Assembly (NCBI GenBank): GCA_030628225.1
Contig: DAOVRJ010000046.1
Coordinates: 1-12,320, forward strand
Source: Candidatus Zixiibacteriota bacterium
GTDB lineage: Bacteria > SM23-81
Direction of reading: 5' to 3'
DNA: 12,320 nt
Shown: positions 125 through 9,434 of the stretch, piece after piece
Layout of the letters: each line of letters opens with the position of its first letter
Numbering within the stretch: the stretch's first letter is position 1
The notes under the pieces: generated by a model
Database searches by the model: none
The model's input: the letters and a program-made list of their open reading frames with translations, nothing else
Told to the model about the DNA's origin: nothing
Translations under genes and position numbers: made by a program

Positions 125-1828
125 ATGAATCTAAAAGTTCGCATTGCCATCATCTCAGTGGCCGTCAACGTTGTTTTGGTGGGCGTCAAGCTCACGCTGG
201 CCAGATGGTCTCAAAGCACCTCCATTCTCGCCGACGCCATTCACTCCCTTTCAGACATACTGGTCTCCATGCTGGTTCTCAGCGGTCTTGTCCTGGGAGC
301 TCTTGGTCAGAGAGATCACCATGACCGCTGGCGGAAGATCGAGGACATCGTGGCCATTGTGGTGGGGCTGTTTATTCTTCTGGCGGCCGTTCAGATCTTC
401 GCCGGCGCGGTAGCCGGTCCCCCCAGGGAGCTGACCCGTTTGCCCGTGGCTCTGGCGGGTATTTTCCTGTGCATTTTGGTCTCCGGCTTTATAGCCCGGC
501 TCAAGATCAAGGTGGGGAAAGAGCAGTCCTCCACCAGCCTGGTGGCCGATGGCTATCACTCGCGAATGGACATGTACTCCTCGATCGGGGTGATGGTAGG
601 CCTGGTGGGTGGCATGATCGGTCTCAACCTTGACGTTCAGGCCGCCGGACTGATCGCCTTGCTCATCGCTGCAACAGGTCTGGAGGTGATATACGGAGGC
701 ATACGGGCGTTGCTGCGGGGGACGGCGCTGGAGGAGTATTGGTTGGCGAACCTCTTCGGCCACACCCTGGTAGGACGACCTCCCCCTGCTGGATTGAGCC
801 ACAGATCCCTTGATCTGATCCTGTGGCTGCGTCATCGGGGCCGGCGCTTGCTGGTCTGGCTCTCAGTATTGGTCCTTCTTCTCTGGTTTTCCTCCGGGCT
901 GTATCAGGTTGGCCCTGGAGAGCGGGCGCTGGTATTTCGGTTTGGACGGTTATTGGACGCCTCTGGTCAAGGCCCTGGCCTGCGTGTACATCTGCCCTGG
1001 CCGGTGGAGAGGGCGCGCAAGATCCCGGTGAATATCATAAGGCGCATCGAGATCGGGTTTCGCACCCAGCTGATTGCTTCGGCAGCGGATATGCGCTCAT
1101 ATCAGTGGGAGAGCCGGCATGTCTTCGGGAAATACATCAAGAAGCCAGAGGAGTCCATTATGTTCACCGGCGATGAGAACTTGATCGACGTTAACACCAT
1201 CGTCCAGTATCGGGTGGCTGAGATCACTTCCTTTCTGCTGCGCCTGGAGGATCCGGAGACCCTGGTTAGATTGGCGGCTGAGGAGGCCATCAGGACGGTG
1301 GTGGGCATGGAGACTCTGGATAACCTGTTGACTTTGGATCGGCTGTCTGTGGAAGAGCAAATTCTGCAGACACTTCAGGCCACCTTAGAGAGAGTTGGTT
1401 CAGGCATACAGGTGATGGCAGTGAAGCTCCAGGACGTTCACCCTCCCATAGAGGTGGTTGAGGCTTTTCGGGATGTGGCCAGCGCTCGGGAAGACAAGAA
1501 TCGGCTGATCAACGAGGCGTATGCCTACAGGAATGAGGTGCTTCCCAGGGCCCGGGGCAAGGGGGTTGACGAGATTTACCAGGCCGAGGCCCAAAAGCAG
1601 GAGAGAATAAACGCTGCCCGGGGGGAGGCCGAGAAATTTGTGGCTCTTCTCCGCGAATACCAGAAAGCTCGAGAGGTCACCGAGGTGCGCATGTTCCTAG
1701 AGACTATGGAGAAAGCGCTGAGCGGAATGGAGAAGTTCATCGTCGAGCCGGGAGCCTCCCGGGAGCCGCTGGACCTCAGATTTTTTAAAGGACAACCAGG
1801 AGAGATCTTTGAAGGGGCGGGAAGATGA
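125..1828 (+). CDS. Fusion protein: CDF cation transporter membrane domain + HflK (SPFH/band 7)
   Basis: A 567-residue protein made of two families. Residues 1-200 resemble the six-helix membrane domain of cation diffusion facilitators (Zn/Fe/Mn-proton antiporters). TM2 carries the H40-x3-D44 metal-site motif (ADAIHSLSD) and TM5 the matching H145-x3-D149 (VADGYHSRMD). A reduced loop, DHHDRWRKIED, sits where CDFs usually have HPYGHGKIE. The cytoplasmic C-terminal CDF dimerisation domain is absent. After a linker (about 200-238), a seventh helix (242-260) leads into a complete HflK: GLYQVGPGERALVFRFGR, LPWPVE, FTGDEN, VQYRV, SAREDKNRLINEA, then a charged helical tail. Six CDF helices leave the chain in the cytoplasm, so helix 7 would place the SPFH domain in the periplasm, as in normal HflK. 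GAGGAG abuts the ATG; the start fits the usual beginning of CDF TM1. It overlaps hflC by 4 bp. Both family assignments are firm; retained transport is inference. HflK normally modulates FtsH. Confidence 0.88.
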   Translation: MNLKVRIAIISVAVNVVLVGVKLTLARWSQSTSILADAIHSLSDILVSMLVLSGLVLGALGQRDHHDRWRKIEDIVAIVVGLFILLAAVQIFAGAVAGPPRELTRLPVALAGIFLCILVSGFIARLKIKVGKEQSSTSLVADGYHSRMDMYSSIGVMVGLVGGMIGLNLDVQAAGLIALLIAATGLEVIYGGIRALLRGTALEEYWLANLFGHTLVGRPPPAGLSHRSLDLILWLRHRGRRLLVWLSVLVLLLWFSSGLYQVGPGERALVFRFGRLLDASGQGPGLRVHLPWPVERARKIPVNIIRRIEIGFRTQLIASAADMRSYQWESRHVFGKYIKKPEESIMFTGDENLIDVNTIVQYRVAEITSFLLRLEDPETLVRLAAEEAIRTVVGMETLDNLLTLDRLSVEEQILQTLQATLERVGSGIQVMAVKLQDVHPPIEVVEAFRDVASAREDKNRLINEAYAYRNEVLPRARGKGVDEIYQAEAQKQERINAARGEAEKFVALLREYQKAREVTEVRMFLETMEKALSGMEKFIVEPGASREPLDLRFFKGQPGEIFEGAGR

Positions 1829-2712
1829 AGAGAAAGTTGATCGTTGCATTCATCGTCGCCGGTTTTTTTATCCTGCTGGTGAGCTCTATCCTCTTCCAGG
1901 TTGAGGAGACTCAGTTTGCCATCATCACCCAATTCGGGAAGCCTGTCCGCGTAATTTCCACGGCGGGCCTCAAGCTAAAATGGCCGGATCCCATCCAGTC
2001 GGTTCGGCGGTTCGACCGTCGATTGTTGCTCTTCGACCCGGAGCCCAGCGAGTTTCTCACCCAGGACAAGAAGAATGTTCTGGTGGACAGCTATATGGGC
2101 TGGCGTATCAGCGAGCCGTTGAAATTTCTGGAGTCGGTGAAAGAGCGATCTGTGGCCGAAGTTTTTCTGGCCGACATCGCCTCGGCGGCCATGGGAGCGG
2201 CTCTGGGCAACTACTCCCTGTCGGCCTTGGTCTCCACGGACCCTCAGCAGAACAAGGTGGATCAGATCATGGAGCAGGTTAGCTCCAAATGCCGTGAGAA
2301 AGCGGCCGCCGATTATGGGATAAAGATCCTGGAGGTTCGACTGAAGAGGTTGAATTTGCCCGAGCAGAATAAGGAGAGCGTCTTTGAGCGCATGCGTACT
2401 GAGAGGGAACGCATGGCCAAGAAGTATCGCTCTGAAGGCGAGGAGGAGGCCATCAAAATTCGGGCCGAGGCGGATAAGAAATGCCGGACCACCCTCTCCG
2501 AAGCTTACGAGAAGGCGCAGATAATCATCGGGGAAGGAGACGCAGAGGCGACGCGCATCTACGCTTCGGCTTTCAACAGGGATCCCCGTTTCTACAAGCT
2601 GGTTCGAACATTGGAGTCGTACGGGAAGTTCCTAAACGAAAAGACCACGGTTGTCCTGTCTACAGATTCAGAGCTTCTGGAGTTGCTCACAGAGGGGAAG
2701 TTCAAGGAATAG
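1825..2712 (+). CDS. hflC: HflC, SPFH/band 7 partner of HflK
   Basis: A 295-residue SPFH protein, a little shorter than E. coli HflC (334). One N-terminal membrane helix (about residues 4-24) precedes the band-7 domain, starting EETQFAIITQFGKPV. HflC-type signatures follow: the DKKNVLVDSYMGWRIS block, IKILEVRLKRLNLPE, ESVFERMRTERERMAKKYRSEGEEE in spaced form, the GEGDAEATRIYA segment, and the closing FNRDPRFYKLVRTLESY. HflC assembles with HflK into a large membrane-anchored periplasmic cage that encloses FtsH and limits its access to membrane substrates; this is family knowledge. The start ATG lies in an ATGA overlap with the upstream fusion gene, pointing to translational coupling. The next hflK starts 10 bp after its stop. 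Identification is firm from the linear motif order. What is odd is that it is flanked by two different HflK-type partners. Confidence 0.93.
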   Translation: MKRKLIVAFIVAGFFILLVSSILFQVEETQFAIITQFGKPVRVISTAGLKLKWPDPIQSVRRFDRRLLLFDPEPSEFLTQDKKNVLVDSYMGWRISEPLKFLESVKERSVAEVFLADIASAAMGAALGNYSLSALVSTDPQQNKVDQIMEQVSSKCREKAAADYGIKILEVRLKRLNLPEQNKESVFERMRTERERMAKKYRSEGEEEAIKIRAEADKKCRTTLSEAYEKAQIIIGEGDAEATRIYASAFNRDPRFYKLVRTLESYGKFLNEKTTVVLSTDSELLELLTEGKFKE

Positions 2713-2722
2713 GCCGAGGTCC

Positions 2723-3706
2723 ATGAAAAATAAGGATTCATTGCTGCATCTGAAAGCGGTTTTTCAGCAGGTCAGAGCCGTTCTGCCGGAATGGCGAAAA
2801 TTAGCTCTCCTGGGCGGCATCTGCTTTTTAGGGCTTTATCTGCTCTCCGGCATCTACGTGGTTCAGCCCAACGAGCAGGGGGTGGTCCGGCGTTTCGGTC
2901 GGGTGGTGAATGATGGGATCATGCCGGGTATCCATTATCATCTGCCCTGGCCATTTGAAAGGATCAATCGCCCGAAGACCCTACAGGTTAAGGTGATGAG
3001 CATCGGTTTCCGGATGGTGGACAAGGTTAAGGGGCTCAGTCCGCGGCCGGAGGAGACGCAGATGCTCACCGGCGACGAGAATATCATCAACGTCCAGCTG
3101 ATCGTGCAATACCGGGTGGAGGACCCCCGGGCTTTCCTGTTTGCGGTGGAGTCACCTCACTGGCTGGTGCGCAAGGCGGCCGAGGCCTGTCTCACCAAAA
3201 TCATCGGCTCTATGGGCGTCGATCAGGTGTTGACCACGGACAAGCTGATCATCCAGGAGCGGCTGAAGGAGGAGGCGCAGGCTATTTTAGACCGATACGG
3301 TTGCGGACTACGGATTTACGGGACTTATTTTCAGGACATCAACCCCACGGAGGAAGTGGCCTTTGCCTTTCGGGATGTGGCCAGTGCCCGGGAGGATCGC
3401 AACCGCCTGATCAACGAAGCTCACGGGTATAGGAACGAGAAATTGCCCCAGGTGCGCGGGCAGGCTGAGCAGATGATTCGGGAGGCAGAGGGATATAAGA
3501 CCGAGCGGGTTAACCGGGCCAGGGGTGAGGCGGACAGGTTTTTATCTCTGTTGCAGGAGTATCGTAAAAGCAGAGAAGTCACCGAAACTCGACTGTACAT
3601 AGAGACCATGGAAAAAATACTCCCCAAGATCCGCAAATACATCTTGGATAAAGAGCAAAACAAGGGGGTGGTGGATCTGAAGATGATTATCCCCGGTCAG
3701 GAATAG
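2723..3706 (+). CDS. hflK: HflK, stand-alone second copy
   Basis: A 327-residue HflK. One membrane helix (about 27-46) follows a short cytoplasmic N-terminus. The SPFH domain begins VVQPNEQGVVRRFGR, followed by LPWPFE, LTGDENIINV, VQYRVEDPRAF, and the HflK hallmark ASAREDRNRLINEAHGYRNE. The rest is an Ala/Glu/Arg-rich coiled-coil tail that shares REVTE, ETMEK and RGEA blocks with the fusion protein two genes upstream, so the two are clear paralogues. The start is ATG 2723, 10 bp after the hflC stop, with GAGGT at 2716-2720. An in-frame upstream start at 2651 lies inside hflC and lacks this signal. It lacks the Gly/Gln-rich N-terminal extension of E. coli HflK (419 residues). Likely function: HflC partner in the FtsH-regulating cage. 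Why the operon keeps both a CDF-fused and a plain HflK is unknown. Confidence 0.92.
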   Translation: MKNKDSLLHLKAVFQQVRAVLPEWRKLALLGGICFLGLYLLSGIYVVQPNEQGVVRRFGRVVNDGIMPGIHYHLPWPFERINRPKTLQVKVMSIGFRMVDKVKGLSPRPEETQMLTGDENIINVQLIVQYRVEDPRAFLFAVESPHWLVRKAAEACLTKIIGSMGVDQVLTTDKLIIQERLKEEAQAILDRYGCGLRIYGTYFQDINPTEEVAFAFRDVASAREDRNRLINEAHGYRNEKLPQVRGQAEQMIREAEGYKTERVNRARGEADRFLSLLQEYRKSREVTETRLYIETMEKILPKIRKYILDKEQNKGVVDLKMIIPGQE

Positions 3707-3821
3707 GGACTGAGGGTGGAAAGTGTTGTAAGGCAGTAATTTTTTTGATAGCCCGTACCTCGGGTTTACAAGAGCAACCGTGGTTCCAAATCGCACACAT
3801 CTTAACGCGGAGGTCATGGAG

Positions 3822-4217
3822 ATGGGACCAGAGGTGCAGAGGAGAAAATCTCACTTTTGCTCCGTCTGTCAGAGAGTTGTGAAGATGGATATGTTGCGCA
3901 AAGGGCCGGTCGATGACGTGACATGGCTAAAATGCCCGGACTGTGAGGGCATCGTTCCCGTTCTCTCAGCCGCGATCAAGGAGTTGATGGGGATGAAGGA
4001 GGAAGTGCCGGGTACTGTGATGAAAAACGAATGTCCCGAATATGAGATGAGCGGGAACTATGATGTCGGTCAGATTTTCTACCATAAAATCTGGGATGAC
4101 TATGGGATGGTGCTCCAGAAGGGAAAGGAATCCCAGAAAGGCAGGGCCATCATGGTCTCTTTCCTCAGGGGGGGGTTAAAGAAGATCGTCGAGAATTACC
4201 AGTCGCTCGATACATAG
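3822..4217 (+). CDS. Small zinc-ribbon protein with C-terminal beta-rich (SH3/tudor-like) segment
   Basis: A 131-residue soluble protein with no signal peptide. C13-x2-C16 (CSVC) and C38-x2-C41 (CPDC) form a likely four-cysteine zinc ribbon. The C-terminal half, about residues 70-129, reads YDVGQIFYHKIWDDYGMVLQ and then a run of alternating hydrophobics ending KKIVENY. I compare this with small SH3/tudor-like folds that begin with a Y-x-x-G-x-x-hydrophobic-x-H pattern; that comparison is from memory and uncertain. I chose ATG 3822 because GCGGAGG (3807-3813) lies 8 nt before it; ATG 3816 is too close, and the GTG at 3780 has no signal. It starts 115 bp after hflK with no terminator between, and a strong terminator follows, so it may be the last gene of the SPFH operon. 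I do not recognise a named family. A nucleic-acid or protein-binding regulatory role is a guess. Confidence 0.75.
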   Translation: MGPEVQRRKSHFCSVCQRVVKMDMLRKGPVDDVTWLKCPDCEGIVPVLSAAIKELMGMKEEVPGTVMKNECPEYEMSGNYDVGQIFYHKIWDDYGMVLQKGKESQKGRAIMVSFLRGGLKKIVENYQSLDT

Positions 4218-4986: not shown

Positions 4987-6393
4987 CTACTTGTTTCTCC
5001 GCGATCTTCCCTCCGTGCTGGTGTTCCCCTTTGAGCTCTGCTTGCTGCTGGAGCTGCTGGAGCGCTCCTTTTTCGAGCCCGTGTCCGCGGACTTTTTCTG
5101 GGAGCTGCTCTGTTTCTTTTTGGAATCGCCGGTGAATACTTTGGCCACGCTTCCGATGATCTTGCCCAGGCTGGAGCTTCGGCCGGAGCTCTTCTTCACC
5201 TTTTTCGTCTCGCTTCTGGCAGGGCTTCTCTCCCGGTCAACCTCTCTTTTTCTTGATCTTTGGGATTCCACACCGGAGCGGATCTGGGTGCGAGATTGGC
5301 TGTTGCTTTTTGCCACGCGATCTATCCGGTAAGAAGGCCTCCGTGACCTGCGCTCGCTGTCACTGAGATCGCGATTGCCATCTTGCTCTTCCCTTGACAA
5401 GCGGCGATCAAGATTGCCGGTTTCCCCTCTTTTCGTCCGCTCCTGCATTTGTTCGCTGCCCGAGCCAGACCACTCACGCGGGGGCCGTCTTCTATCCTCC
5501 CGGCTCACATCATCTTTCCCTGTCCCAAATCGTGATGGACGCTCTCCTCCTCCGCCCCGCCGCACAGGTTTCTCCCGGTACCAGTCCGGCTTGCGTCTAT
5601 CCTGATGATAGTAGCCCTTCCAGGTGCATCGACGGCCGGTGTCCCGGTCGATGTACCAGTACACGTAGATGGGCTGACAGCCATGGTACCACCACCACGG
5701 GCGGCACCAGTAATGGTCCCAGTAGAAGTCCATCCAGATGCCCACGTGGATATAGGGATCCCACCAGGGATCGTAGAATCGATCGGGATACCAGTGATAG
5801 ACGATGTACCGGGGATAGGGGACCCAGCGGCGCACGTAAAACCAGCTGACGTCGCTGCTATAGCCCTCCGGCTCGTACTCATCATTGCCCCAGGCTAACT
5901 GCTGGTTGATCTCGTGGATGGCCAGATGGGGGTCTCCGGTGACGCGCCCCATGGGCCAGTAGATATCGCTGTCCACGCCATCTTCTATGTCGTAGAGAGC
6001 CCGCAAGTTCAGAGGAAAGTGCGAGGCGATGGCCACCACGTATTCGATGCCTGTAGGACCGTCCACAATCAAGTCGTACTCGTCGTAGGGGTCGGGGATC
6101 TCGTAGATGCGTCCTCCCTCGACCCAGGTCTGGTCATTGTACTTAGGATATAGCACATGGACGAAACCTTCTGTATCCACATTGTAAACCGCCACGTAGC
6201 AATCCTCGGAGGCCTGGAAGTATACGCGGATGTAGTGATCAGGCTCATACACGGCGCCATTGTGCTTGTTGAGCCATACTTCCACCTGCGCATTCCTGGA
6301 GGGGCGATTGCCCGCTTCCTCAAAGGCCGTGGCCAGGTGTGACCAGGCCATGGCCATCCCGACGATGCTCAGTAAAACCAGCAGCTTTCTCAT
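4987..6393 (-). CDS. Exported DUF4384 protein with Trp/Tyr-rich centre and Ser/Arg/Lys-rich tail
   Basis: 468 residues. A Sec signal peptide (1 to about 23, cleavage near ATA/FEEAG) is followed by a DUF4384-type domain at about 35-128. Matches to that pattern are EVWLNKHNGAVYEPDHYI, the DCYVAVYNVDTEGFVHVLYP block, then EGGRIYEIP and GPTGIEYVVAIAS. Residues 186-272 are extraordinarily aromatic (WYPDRF, DPWWDPY, FYWDHYWCRPWWWYHG, VYWYIDR), with cysteines at 230, 239 and 256. From about 275 the chain becomes Arg/Gly/Ser-rich and ends in Ser/Lys runs (KKERSSSSSSKQSSKG), probably disordered. The start has GGGGGCGAT four nt before the ATG, the same leader as the Spy-like gene of this operon. It is the last gene of the sigma-led operon and ends at a shared hairpin. 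DUF4384 domains occur in envelope proteins and next to kinases or sigma systems; no biochemical role is established here. An envelope surface-binding role for the aromatic and basic parts is inference. Confidence 0.82.
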   Translation of the reverse strand: MRKLLVLLSIVGMAMAWSHLATAFEEAGNRPSRNAQVEVWLNKHNGAVYEPDHYIRVYFQASEDCYVAVYNVDTEGFVHVLYPKYNDQTWVEGGRIYEIPDPYDEYDLIVDGPTGIEYVVAIASHFPLNLRALYDIEDGVDSDIYWPMGRVTGDPHLAIHEINQQLAWGNDEYEPEGYSSDVSWFYVRRWVPYPRYIVYHWYPDRFYDPWWDPYIHVGIWMDFYWDHYWCRPWWWYHGCQPIYVYWYIDRDTGRRCTWKGYYHQDRRKPDWYREKPVRRGGGGERPSRFGTGKDDVSREDRRRPPREWSGSGSEQMQERTKRGETGNLDRRLSREEQDGNRDLSDSERRSRRPSYRIDRVAKSNSQSRTQIRSGVESQRSRKREVDRERSPARSETKKVKKSSGRSSSLGKIIGSVAKVFTGDSKKKQSSSQKKSADTGSKKERSSSSSSKQSSKGNTSTEGRSRRNK

Positions 6394-6407: not shown

Positions 6408-7334
6408 TTATAGATTCTGTTCGCTCTCACCCAGAGCAGGTTTGCGGCTGGGACGGCTGGAGGGGATCCGGCAGTCGGCCTCAGCCTTTCTGGGCTGACG
6501 CAGATCGGCGGGAGATAGACTTTCGCCGGCGGGCAGAGCCTTCAGCTCCGGATTGCCCTCGTCGATCTGAAAGGCCCAGTCGATGACCACGTAGTCGTAG
6601 CCGATGTGCATCACCTGGAATTTGGCGAAGTTGTTCTCCCAGGTCCAGACCAGATAGGCATGGCCCTCGTAGAGAGTGAGGGTATCGGCGATATCGGTGG
6701 ACCAGCCGCCATCCGGAGCCCAGTCAATTTCGTCCAGCGAGTTGACGTACCCGGCATACTGGATGTCCGTCCCATAAATATTGCCCAAGTATACTACATC
6801 AGTGCTGGCCAGGCAGTACCGGCCGTTCAGCCAGAGAAGGTACATGTCCACGAACGGATCGTCCCAGGGCTGGACCATGCGGCTATAATACCCGGAGAAG
6901 TCCACGCCGGCGCGGGAGTCCTCATCGTAGATGATCAGATCATAGCCCTCTGGGCGTGGTGTGTCGTGCACCGTCTCATAACTCAGACCGCTCTCGTTTC
7001 CATTCCAGTCGTGGGCGGATACGGCGTAGTAATAGGTGACCCCGTTCTGCACGTCCTCGTCCACGAAGTAGTTATCCCCACTCCTGCCGATGCACGAGTA
7101 CTGTCCGTTTGGGCTCATGCTGTAGAAGATCTTGTAGCCGGCCAGGTCATCGATGCGCACTTCGCTCCAGCAGATCTCCACGAATCCATCTCCGGTGATG
7201 GTGCGCACGCCCGCTGGGACCGGTGGTGGGGTGTGGTCGCAACAGCGGTTGACATCACAACAACCGGCGGTCAAAAGAGCGATCGATATCGGAAGTATCA
7301 GGATTAACCAGTAGAGTTTCCTTTTCACGGTCAT
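6408..7334 (-). CDS. Lipoprotein with a fibronectin type III domain
   Basis: 308 residues. Lys/Arg N-terminus, hydrophobic helix (8-22) and lipobox TAGC with acylated C25. The following CDVNRCCDH segment has extra cysteines. Residues 35-126 form a fibronectin type III domain: PPPVPAGVRTITGDG, VEICWSEV, DLAGYKIFYSMS, VTYYYAVSAHDWNGNES. The remaining region, about 130-275, is Tyr/Trp/Asp-rich and I do not recognise it; it reads like a beta-rich envelope domain. The last 30 residues are basic and Pro/Ser-rich (ADCRIPSSRPSRKP). The ATG at 7334 is only 3 nt from a perfect AGGAGG; the GTG two codons later (7328) is better spaced, so the true start may be there. Its stop lies 14 bp before the DUF4384 gene. 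FN3 domains in bacterial lipoproteins usually mediate protein or carbohydrate contacts. Likely an outer-membrane-anchored component of the operon's envelope function; exact role unknown. Confidence 0.82.
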   Translation of the reverse strand: MTVKRKLYWLILILPISIALLTAGCCDVNRCCDHTPPPVPAGVRTITGDGFVEICWSEVRIDDLAGYKIFYSMSPNGQYSCIGRSGDNYFVDEDVQNGVTYYYAVSAHDWNGNESGLSYETVHDTPRPEGYDLIIYDEDSRAGVDFSGYYSRMVQPWDDPFVDMYLLWLNGRYCLASTDVVYLGNIYGTDIQYAGYVNSLDEIDWAPDGGWSTDIADTLTLYEGHAYLVWTWENNFAKFQVMHIGYDYVVIDWAFQIDEGNPELKALPAGESLSPADLRQPRKAEADCRIPSSRPSRKPALGESEQNL

Positions 7335-7355: not shown

Positions 7356-8117
7356 TTAGTTACGCTGGGACCGGGATGATTTTTCTGTGGAAGACCCGTT
7401 TTCGCGGGATGAGCTCCTGTTGGAGGATTCCTTCTTCCGGGATGATCTATTCCCGGAGGATTCTTTTGTCCGGGAGGATTTCGCTTTAGAGGAGTTCCTG
7501 TCCTCAGAGGTGCTTTTCTTTTTGCTCTTGCTCACCTCGCTGGTGTCCCGCCTTTCCTGGCTGCGTTGGGGCTGCTTCTTTTTGCCGGCATTACTTATTT
7601 CCTGGCGGGAAGTGTCGTATGATCTGGTCCCCTCACGGGTTTTGACCTGCAGGTCTTCCTTCTGGATTTCCCGGATCATCCGGCGAAGCTTAGTGTCGAA
7701 CTTCTTGTCGAAGAGCTGGTACTTGGCCTGCTGCTCCACGGTGAGGATTTTGGCCAGCTTGCCTTGAAATTGGTCCTTGTTGGCCCTGGTCTGTTCATCT
7801 ATCTCCTTCAGCCGAGCCATCTTTTCCTTGATCAGATCTTTATCTTTTTCCTCAGCCTGCAGCAGCTTATCCAGCTTCTCCTCGATGGCCTCACGCTGCT
7901 CGCCAAGCTCCTTATTCCGATCTTCGTATGCCTTCTGGGTGGGGAAAAGGGCCTGAGCCTGTTCCTCAGAGAGGTCCAGATCTTCGGTCAGTTGCCAGGC
8001 TTTCACGCTGCTGATCTGCTTGCGGACGTTTTCCTTTTCCTCCTCTTTCAGGGAATAGGCTGTCTGAAAGCTCAACAGAATCAGAGCGCTTACCAGGTAA
8101 ATAATCGGTTTTCGCAT
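7356..8117 (-). CDS. Exported Spy/CpxP/CnrX-like helical protein with SR-like tail
   Basis: 253 residues. A signal peptide (1-22, AYS/LKEE) is followed by an all-helical, strongly charged region (24-155). It contains LTEDLDLSEEQAQAL at 43-57 and LTVEQQAKYQLFDKKF at 125-140. This paired 'L-(T/S)-x-x-Q' spacing is typical of the periplasmic Spy, CpxP, ZraP and CnrX group, which are chaperones or sensors of envelope and metal stress. From residue 160 the chain becomes a Ser/Arg/Lys low-complexity tail (SSRTKESSGNRSSRKKESSN and similar), which is not part of that family as I know it. GAGGGGG precedes the ATG by 8 nt. It sits directly after the anti-sigma gene, the place CnrX-like sensors occupy in sigma operons. 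A role as periplasmic sensor or buffer for the sigma system is plausible but inferred; a DUF3106-type label is an alternative. Confidence 0.8.
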   Translation of the reverse strand: MRKPIIYLVSALILLSFQTAYSLKEEEKENVRKQISSVKAWQLTEDLDLSEEQAQALFPTQKAYEDRNKELGEQREAIEEKLDKLLQAEEKDKDLIKEKMARLKEIDEQTRANKDQFQGKLAKILTVEQQAKYQLFDKKFDTKLRRMIREIQKEDLQVKTREGTRSYDTSRQEISNAGKKKQPQRSQERRDTSEVSKSKKKSTSEDRNSSKAKSSRTKESSGNRSSRKKESSNRSSSRENGSSTEKSSRSQRN

Positions 8118-8161: not shown

Positions 8162-8884
8162 TTATCCCATAAGGTTCTTTAGTTTAACCGACAACATCTT
8201 CAACTGATCTTCGCTGAGCTCTTCGATGAGCATCTCCGCGGGAGTCTGCAACAGAGCTTCCTCCTCGATGACAGCCTCCCAGAGGTCCGGATCCCGGGCC
8301 ATTTTTTCTACCATCAGCATCCTTTCCAGAGTTTCCGCCGGATGGGGGATGGCCGCCAACAGCTCCACCAGGGAGTCACCCGGCGTGCGGGCGAATTCAA
8401 GCCCCTCGATGTCCGACAGGGTTTTCCCCAGCTTTTCCAGACTGCGTAGGCCCTGTTGCTCTAAGCTGGCCAGAAGCGAGTGCCCGCCTGGCGCGGGAAA
8501 CTGAGGATGGCCCGACCACCACAGGAAGAGGAAAACCAGCAGCGAGGCCACGGCCACCGCCGGCACCCAGGCTCTGATGGGTACGGCCGGCCGGCGCCCA
8601 GAGACAGCTTGCTCCTCTCTGATTCCCTGGCGCACCCGAGATCTCAGCTCCATCCAGAAGCTCTCATCCGGTTCGGGCAACTCCCGGTAGTTCAATAGAG
8701 TAAGGGTTTGTTTCAGGGAAGCCCTTTCGGCGGCGCAGCGAGGGCAGACCTTCAGGTGTTCGTCCACCATGCGCTGCTCTTCGGGTGGAAGCTGATGTTC
8801 CAGATGGTCCACCAGAGAGGTCCGGACCTGTCTGCAATGAGTCCGTATCTGACGGTCGGTTTTTTTAGTATTCGATTTGGCCAT
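8162..8884 (-). CDS. Transmembrane anti-sigma factor with HC2 zinc finger
   Basis: 240 residues from the ATG. Residues 12-55 form a zf-HC2 anti-sigma zinc-finger domain (ZAS type): C17, then H43-x3-C47-x2-C50 in DEHLKVCPRC. This cytoplasmic domain typically clamps the cognate ECF sigma factor. One membrane helix (about 105-124, VPAVAVASLLVFLFLWW) leads to a periplasmic region of about 110 residues rich in Leu and Glu. That region contains repeated acidic helices (IEGLEF, VIEEEALLQTPAEMLIEELS) and would be the part that senses or is cleaved. The start is ATG 8884, with AGAGG 10 nt upstream; the TTG at 8890 is too close to that signal. The gene overlaps the sigma factor by 20 bp, which supports coupled translation and a matched pair. 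Release could be by regulated proteolysis or redox/zinc loss; the sequence does not decide. Confidence 0.9.
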   Translation of the reverse strand: MAKSNTKKTDRQIRTHCRQVRTSLVDHLEHQLPPEEQRMVDEHLKVCPRCAAERASLKQTLTLLNYRELPEPDESFWMELRSRVRQGIREEQAVSGRRPAVPIRAWVPAVAVASLLVFLFLWWSGHPQFPAPGGHSLLASLEQQGLRSLEKLGKTLSDIEGLEFARTPGDSLVELLAAIPHPAETLERMLMVEKMARDPDLWEAVIEEEALLQTPAEMLIEELSEDQLKMLSVKLKNLMG

Positions 8885-9434
8885 GATCAATTAGCCTCTT
8901 GCGCAATTTCTTAACAGCCTGACAGAAACTCGATTTGATAGCCCCCTCGGAGCGGTCCATGATTTTGGCGATTTCTTTGTGGGGCAATTCCTGATAATAG
9001 TGCATGACGAAGATGGCTCGTTGCTTCGGTGGCAGGGTGGAGATAGCCTGCTCGATCTGCTCGCCCAGATATTTGAGAGCCAGATCGCGGGCCGGCCTGC
9101 CCATAGGCGATCTGAGCAGATGAAATACCTCCGTGAGAGAGAGGGTCTGGCGAAGTTTTTGCCGGCGAATGTAGCTGATACACTGGTTGACGGCGATGCG
9201 GTGCAGCCATGTGCCGAAGCTGGAGCCGAACTTGAAGTTTTTCAAAGAGCGGAAGGCGCGGATAAAAACTTCCTGGGTGATGTCGGCGGCCTCGTCGTGA
9301 TCGCCCAACATGCCCAGGGCAATGCGGTAAACCCTCTTCTGGTGTCTGATCATCAATCTGTCGAAAGCCCATTGCTCGCCTCGCAGGAACTTTCGGATCA
9401 ATTCATGTTCTTCGGCCGCATCCATTTTTCCCAA
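8865..9434 (-). CDS. ECF (group 4) RNA polymerase sigma factor
   Basis: 189 residues with the two-domain ECF layout. Region 2, about 11-93, has ELIRKFLRGEQWAFDRLM, GDHDEAADITQEVFIRAFRS, FGTWLHRIAVNQCISYIRRQ. Region 4, about 126-182, has ISTLPPKQRAIFVMHYYQEL, then the helix-turn-helix HKEIAKIMDRSEGAIKSS and VKKLRKRL. It directs RNA polymerase to -35/-10 elements of its regulon and is held inactive by the anti-sigma encoded immediately downstream. TTG 9434 is preferred because GGAG lies 7 nt before it; ATG 9425, three codons in, is the alternative and changes nothing functional. It heads a five-gene operon. The promoter region is divergent from a + strand promoter at 9665-9693. I could not find a convincing autoregulatory GAAC-type ECF promoter upstream. 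RpoE-like in general architecture; the ECF subgroup cannot be set by eye. Confidence 0.94.
   Translation of the reverse strand: MGKMDAAEEHELIRKFLRGEQWAFDRLMIRHQKRVYRIALGMLGDHDEAADITQEVFIRAFRSLKNFKFGSSFGTWLHRIAVNQCISYIRRQKLRQTLSLTEVFHLLRSPMGRPARDLALKYLGEQIEQAISTLPPKQRAIFVMHYYQELPHKEIAKIMDRSEGAIKSSFCQAVKKLRKRLIDHGQIEY

Follow-up and report, generated by a model that had tools for sequence, protein, structure and literature searches.

The locus

The analysed stretch of DNA (12,320 nucleotides, hereafter the window) is an entire contig of a draft, 92% complete Candidatus Zixiibacteriota genome. Near its start lies a gene whose product joins a CDF metal exporter to the SPFH protein HflK. An HflC gene and a second HflK gene lacking an exporter (HflK2) stand directly behind it; both had been missed by the sequence-only reading of the window (Table 1).

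Table 1. Genes, domains and motifs of the exporter-HflK locus in the window
Feature	Position	Strand	Evidence or remark
Exporter-HflK1 fusion gene, 567 aa (P0001)	125..1828	+	Single ORF and domain profiles
CDF (Cation_efflux) six-helix exporter core, residues 3-198	131..718	+	Pfam, VIA structure match
TM2 half of metal site, H40-x3-D44	242..256	+	Aligns to YiiP D47/D51
TM5 half of metal site, H145-x3-D149	557..571	+	Aligns to YiiP H155/D159
Linker, residues 199-239, in place of CDF C-terminal domain	719..841	+	Low model confidence at 212-226
TM7 / HflK membrane helix	842..898	+	Hydropathy peak 242-260; AF2 helix 239-256
SPFH (Band_7) domain of HflK1	899..1444	+	Pfam; Foldseek to HflK 7vhq_E, E 1.7e-16
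W328-x3-H332 signature, SPFH1 loop	1106..1120	+	20/22 CDF fusions
C-terminal coiled-coil helices of HflK1	1448..1717	+	Model helices 442-514, 516-531
Cassette HflC	1825..2712	+	TIGR01932 209.9 bits, cut-off 134.4; start overlaps fusion stop by 4 bases
HflK2, second HflK without exporter	2723..3706	+	TIGR01933 259.2 bits; HflK2 group in tree
Small Cys-rich, Zn-ribbon-like protein, 143-145 aa, CxxC pairs	3780..4217	+	Same place in SM23_81 (L083)
ECF sigma factor, zf-HC2 anti-sigma factor and envelope-type genes	8868-9434, 8162-8890, 7356-8117, 6408-7334, 4987-6393	-	

The fusion gene starts with an ATG preceded by a Shine-Dalgarno-like AGGAG at positions 119-123. The sequence-only reading had proposed that a CDF membrane domain is fused in frame to HflK, and the profile and fold matches agree with it. 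In the domain searches that it suggested, residues 1-200 matched Pfam Cation_efflux (residues 9-197, profile positions 2-198 of 198, E 2.6e-27, 96.3 bits with a cut-off of 26.6), and residues 235-567 matched Band_7 (residues 261-467, E 2.4e-22). The curated NCBIfam cut-offs were exceeded by both halves, with 102.7 bits against 82.35 for the CDF model TIGR01297 and 222.7 bits (E 5e-66) against 159.4 for the HflK model TIGR01933. The superfamily model aside, the top named CDF subfamily was MamB.

Hydropathy and the AF2 model (pLDDT 76) revealed six helices within residues 3-198 and, as had been read from the sequence, a seventh at 239-256 followed by a full HflK SPFH domain and long C-terminal helices. 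The exporter half superimposed on zinc-loaded YiiP (8f6k) with a Z of 23.2 and an rmsd of 2.2 over 195 residues (VIA), and the second half of the model matched E. coli HflK (7vhq_E) with a Z of 17.2. The pTM was just 0.41, so the two halves are not reliably placed relative to each other.

The CDF profile match ends at residues 198-201 and gives way to the linker and HflK, which bears out the claim that the cytoplasmic CDF dimerisation domain is missing. Such a C-terminal domain is usual in CDFs, not universal. The even number of helices before the HflK helix also agrees with the earlier view that the CDF and HflK topologies are compatible.

The metal site

In a phmmer alignment to solved Shewanella YiiP, H40, D44, H145 and D149 fell in register with D47, D51, H155 and D159, positions that we take to be site A. 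Thus, the residues previously described as CDF-like TM2 and TM5 motifs align column for column with YiiP. Among CDF fusions, H40 is kept in 21/22, D44 in 22/22, H145 in 22/22 and D149 in 21/22, while the median alignment column is identical in 9/22. Two natural variants were seen: H40A in L143 (4624-6435) and D149N in L134 (4837-6543).

HD-HD sites are typical of Zn-CDFs, and on this pattern a zinc-type selectivity is predicted for the fusion, which is the only CDF found in the window genome. We also considered that the exporter half might be nothing but a dead membrane anchor. This is disfavoured, since few columns are as conserved as those of the metal site and the P-type ATPase modules described below keep their catalytic motifs.

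The fusion in other genomes

The sequence-only reading had called for a search for the same architecture elsewhere. A survey of 386 genomes across bacterial families, with additional phylum and record searches, revealed the CDF-HflK fusion in 23 genomes or records in total. An independent homologue, in a 95-kb contig of a separate assembly (SM23_81, LJUY01000010), is 76% identical over its full length. The fusion was also found in Meg22_Bin_348 at 47% identity, in two Spirochaetae genomes at about 35%, and on a complete conjugative plasmid of the cultured isolate Aquibium oceanicum B7, where it is annotated just as HflK.

Comparison of the window with SM23_81 gave dN/dS values of about 0.10 (CDF part), 0.19 (linker), 0.15 (TM7 plus SPFH) and 0.06 (coil). 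The linker itself is under purifying selection (dN 0.27, dS 1.43), and dN/dS over the junction (residues 180-260) was about 0.14. The window being a whole contig of a draft genome, the fusion might have been an artefact of assembly or annotation, or a read-through by chance, but its recurrence, its presence on a complete plasmid and the selection across the junction refute this, and misassembly or a frameshift is ruled out by the full-length homologue, the plasmid and the junction dN/dS.

In Hyphomicrobiales around the Aquibium plasmid the fusion was found in 0/347 genomes at E 1e-60, in a set that held no positive control, and in a plasmid search for fused HflK Aquibium alone covered at least 80% of the query. 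In Spirochaetota, 2/296 genomes searched have a fusion-length frame among the matches listed. A 650-aa frame (L081/G028) resembled a fusion and was rejected, as the exporter domain was not found in the frame. Additionally, a divergent CDF-HflK without HflC or HflK2 (L132, 4260-6083) is flanked by trigger factor and phosphoglucose isomerase genes.

A three-gene cassette

The order exporter-HflK1, HflC, HflK2 was observed in 32 of the 33 loci with enough flank, whatever the exporter type. The exception is G094, which has the fusion without HflC or HflK2; another CDF locus, L209, ends at a contig edge. At least 16 cassette genomes carry a further HflK-like gene elsewhere, so the cassette is no simple replacement of canonical HflKC. 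In the window genome we found one FtsH and no further HflK outside the cassette. It is uncertain whether the Cys-rich protein, which matches no Pfam family, is part of the cassette.

Exchange of the exporter module

Six genomes, from five families, have a permease of the SO_0444 type (PF03773) in the first gene instead of the CDF; domain search showed PF03773 in five of them, and the remaining one, L128, appears in the tree as a near-copy of L121. The two such fusions tested scored 356 and 348 bits against a cut-off of 300 for NF033936, the SO_0444 family of Cu/Zn efflux transporters. SO_0444 is necessary for Shewanella growth in Zn or Cu (PMC3219624). Upstream of three of these cassettes (L121, 1991-3989; L122, 8639-10713; L128, 9585-11587) lie an acetamidase/formamidase-like gene and an extra HflC, which groups with the cassette HflCs.

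A P1B heavy-metal ATPase occupies the slot in five genomes, all from a single small phylum; one of the genes is cut by a contig end. Of the five, one was searched against Pfam and NCBIfam, and its module reached 616 bits against a cut-off of 346. The CPC, DKTGT and GDGIND motifs are retained in the P1B modules. G268 and G740 have the CDF version of the cassette alongside the P1B version.

By hydropathy, six helices precede the HflK helix in the CDF type and eight in the permease type, the P1B count being less clear. This even number suggests that the SPFH domain stays periplasmic. It should be stressed that no other functional evidence here is as strong as this occupation of a single slot by three unrelated exporter folds that share a kind of cargo.

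Phylogeny

A careful tree was built from 79 HflK halves. Canonical HflKs, that of E. coli included, form one group in it (98/93), with no cassette HflK inside. The HflK half of the fusion does not group with them. Permease-fused HflKs nest among CDF-fused ones.

In the free tree, neither the fused sequences nor those of HflK2 stay together; they fall into several groups. Constraining all 26 fused HflKs together gave an lnL of +7.6 relative to the free tree (p-AU 0.67), and constraining all HflK2 together gave +8.2 (p-AU 0.68). A single origin of the fused HflKs, and likewise of HflK2, is thus suggested as the best tree found, the tests themselves proving no clade. The cassette HflCs form one group apart from 25 canonical HflCs (FastTree support 0.876). 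With these groupings of HflK1, HflK2 and HflC, the cassette looks like a single old unit of three genes whose exporter was swapped.

FtsH-contact residues and an HflK1 signature

The FtsH-contact residues of canonical HflK are partially retained in the cassette HflKs. R141 and E142 of E. coli HflK are reported to contact FtsH (PMC13220708). We used R141, E142 and R185 (PMC13220708) in addition, because Arg191, given as the FtsH contact in PMC12048511, is not an Arg in MG1655 numbering, whereas R193 is. Among CDF fusions, R141 is retained in 16/20 and R185 in just 5/20; among permease fusions, R141 is retained in 5/6. Position 193 is Arg in 42/42 canonical HflKs, 9/20 CDF fusions and 4/6 permease fusions, and in 0/28 HflK2.

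The five P1B fusions have W-x3-H or W-x3-D at the SPFH1 loop where most CDF fusions have W-x3-H. The latter was found in 0/6 permease fusions, 0/28 HflK2 and 0/42 canonical HflKs, and is absent from E. coli HflK. The loop, in a region disordered in the AF2 model, perhaps faces the chamber, given that it lies just behind the E. coli R141/E142 position. We treat it as a lead, since it was noticed only after looking.

Genomic neighbours

In the window, no metal-resistance genes adjoin the cassette. Facing it are the sigma and anti-sigma factors and three envelope-type proteins, described by a weak Metal_resist match, a lipoprotein-like sequence and DUF4384; this synteny is partly kept in SM23_81.

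Metal-resistance genes are present in Aquibium and Spirochaetae. The neighbours on the Aquibium plasmid are Nramp, a response regulator and kinase, a PPIC isomerase, a heavy-metal P-type ATPase, PCu(A)C and SCO; those in Spirochaetae L034 are ArsR, an HMA P-type ATPase and the same PPIC isomerase. This isomerase follows the cassette on both the alphaproteobacterial plasmid (L151, 14068-15765) and in Spirochaetae (L034, 9739-11862), which suggests that what moved was a larger metal module.

At six loci (L125, L133, L135, L138, L141, L033) the neighbours include Mrp/NBP35-type and ferredoxin-bearing NTPases, NifU and FeMo-Co-type proteins. An additional free CDF lies near the cassette of L125. 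ZIP transporters make up 2 of the 105 neighbours.

Discussion

We consider it reasonably likely that the locus encodes a dedicated, exporter-bearing SPFH dome with exchangeable transition-metal exporters, probably serving efflux. HflK1, HflC and HflK2 would probably assemble together, like E. coli HflK/HflC, into a dome on the periplasmic face of the inner membrane, and each HflK1 would bring a metal exporter joined to the N-terminal end of its membrane helix, on the cytoplasmic side. The zinc-type CDF of the window suggests that Zn2+ or a similar divalent ion would be moved from the cytoplasm to the periplasm, and this export is predicted to run against protons. The SPFH ring might substitute for the absent CDF dimerisation domain, holding the exporters side by side in a fenced membrane patch, so that the metal would emerge at or under the dome. 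The packing of exporters around an HflKC-sized ring may be tight.

Several observations count against this explanation. The window lacks metal-resistance neighbours, and the Fe-S, NifU and Mrp neighbours at six loci possibly indicate iron trafficking. Additionally, H40 is lost in L143, D149 is replaced in L134, G094 lacks HflC and HflK2, and the free tree is split.

The sequence-only reading had offered two ideas. Multiplying a transporter into a ring is the one that fits best. Zinc supply or sensing for an ordinary HflKC/FtsH cage found no support: the separate trees, the further HflKs, the loss of Arg in HflK2 and the exchangeable Zn, Cu and Cd exporters all point to metal export itself as the purpose.

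A tentative extension is that the dome forms a protein-walled periplasmic metal compartment, in which all three exporter folds would discharge under the cage and the W-x3-[HD] loops would help to hold or pass on the ion. In that case, these loops would conceivably lie inside the chamber, at the place of contact between canonical HflK and FtsH.

It is rather unlikely that the cassette serves the assembly of Fe-S clusters by handling iron, with FieF/MamB-like movement of Fe2+, instead of detoxifying zinc. The HD-HD site is of the Zn-CDF kind, the other modules are Cu/Zn permeases and heavy-metal ATPases, and the Aquibium and Spirochaetae contexts are those of heavy-metal resistance. What gives iron its small share is the set of Fe-S-type genes adjoining six cassettes together with the loss of HflKC in E. 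coli, which lowers the Fe-S enzyme IspG (PMC12005517); the MamB match points the same way.

Metal binding in the membrane part might instead open or close the HflK/HflC cage and thereby regulate proteolysis by FtsH during metal stress. In E. coli, access to FtsH is gated by HflKC (PMC12048511, PMC13220708), and the window genome, in which one FtsH and no HflK beyond the cassette were found, would suit such a role. We nevertheless judge it distinctly unlikely: three unrelated exporter families, one of them ATP-driven with its motifs intact, would make improbable sensors, at least 16 cassette genomes have another HflK-like gene, and the Arg at position 193 that is universal in our canonical HflKs is gone from HflK2.

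Quality control is more doubtful still. Here the fusion would tie the exporters to FtsH and in-cage degradation would set the pump level, transport itself proceeding as in free pumps. HflK is the cage's contact with FtsH (PMC13220708) and R141 is mostly kept, but R185 mostly is not, and if a covalently fused subunit were degraded, the cage would go with it.

The proposed exporter-bearing dome can be compared with several known systems. The fusion shares the SPFH fold, membrane helix and coiled coil with E. coli HflK/HflC, the FtsH modulator (7vhq_E and 9cz2 were the best Foldseek matches), it has the adjacent HflC partner of an HflK, and an alternating HflK/HflC dome is the assembly expected here. 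It differs from that system in the six-helix exporter that replaces the N-terminal cytoplasmic tail, the two HflKs per operon, the separate grouping of all three genes in the best trees and the distinctive W-x3-H loop. With YiiP/FieF and ZnT it has the six-helix core, fold and site A residues in common, and it departs from them in lacking the cytoplasmic dimerisation domain and being joined to SPFH. The SO_0444/ArsP_1 permeases and P1B ATPases, whose full-length modules exceed curated cut-offs in sister cassettes, are normally free; in the cassettes they stand N-terminal to HflK1.

With human stomatin, too, an SPFH ring fences transporters in a membrane patch, its domes enclosing AQP1 and UT-B, but these domes are non-covalent and cytosolic and the transporters carry water and urea (PMC12407830). 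In mycobacteria, PacL scaffolds cluster P-type ATPases into metal effluxosomes; in M. tuberculosis this likewise brings Zn/Cd exporters together, although PacL is a small single-TM, non-SPFH scaffold with flotillin-independent foci and no fusion (PMC9374683, PMC13043812). There are thus precedents for both halves of the SPFH-exporter idea. The sequence-only reading knew of no characterised protein of this layout, and we found no report of an exporter-HflK fusion in the open-access literature searched.

The cassette looks like an apparently undescribed modular metal-export assembly, of the SPFH/HflKC kind with built-in exporters, and adds an undescribed plasmid-borne candidate for metal resistance. 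The cassette bears on the roles of bacterial SPFH proteins beyond the control of FtsH, for the client can be read from the genome: a covalent module of one HflK paralogue, swapped among three unrelated folds that are all transition-metal exporters. Because transporter and scaffold are one chain with fixed stoichiometry, it becomes directly testable whether transporters are organised or enclosed by SPFH domes. If the compartment reading were true, this would be a bacterial metal-handling compartment built of membrane protein alone.
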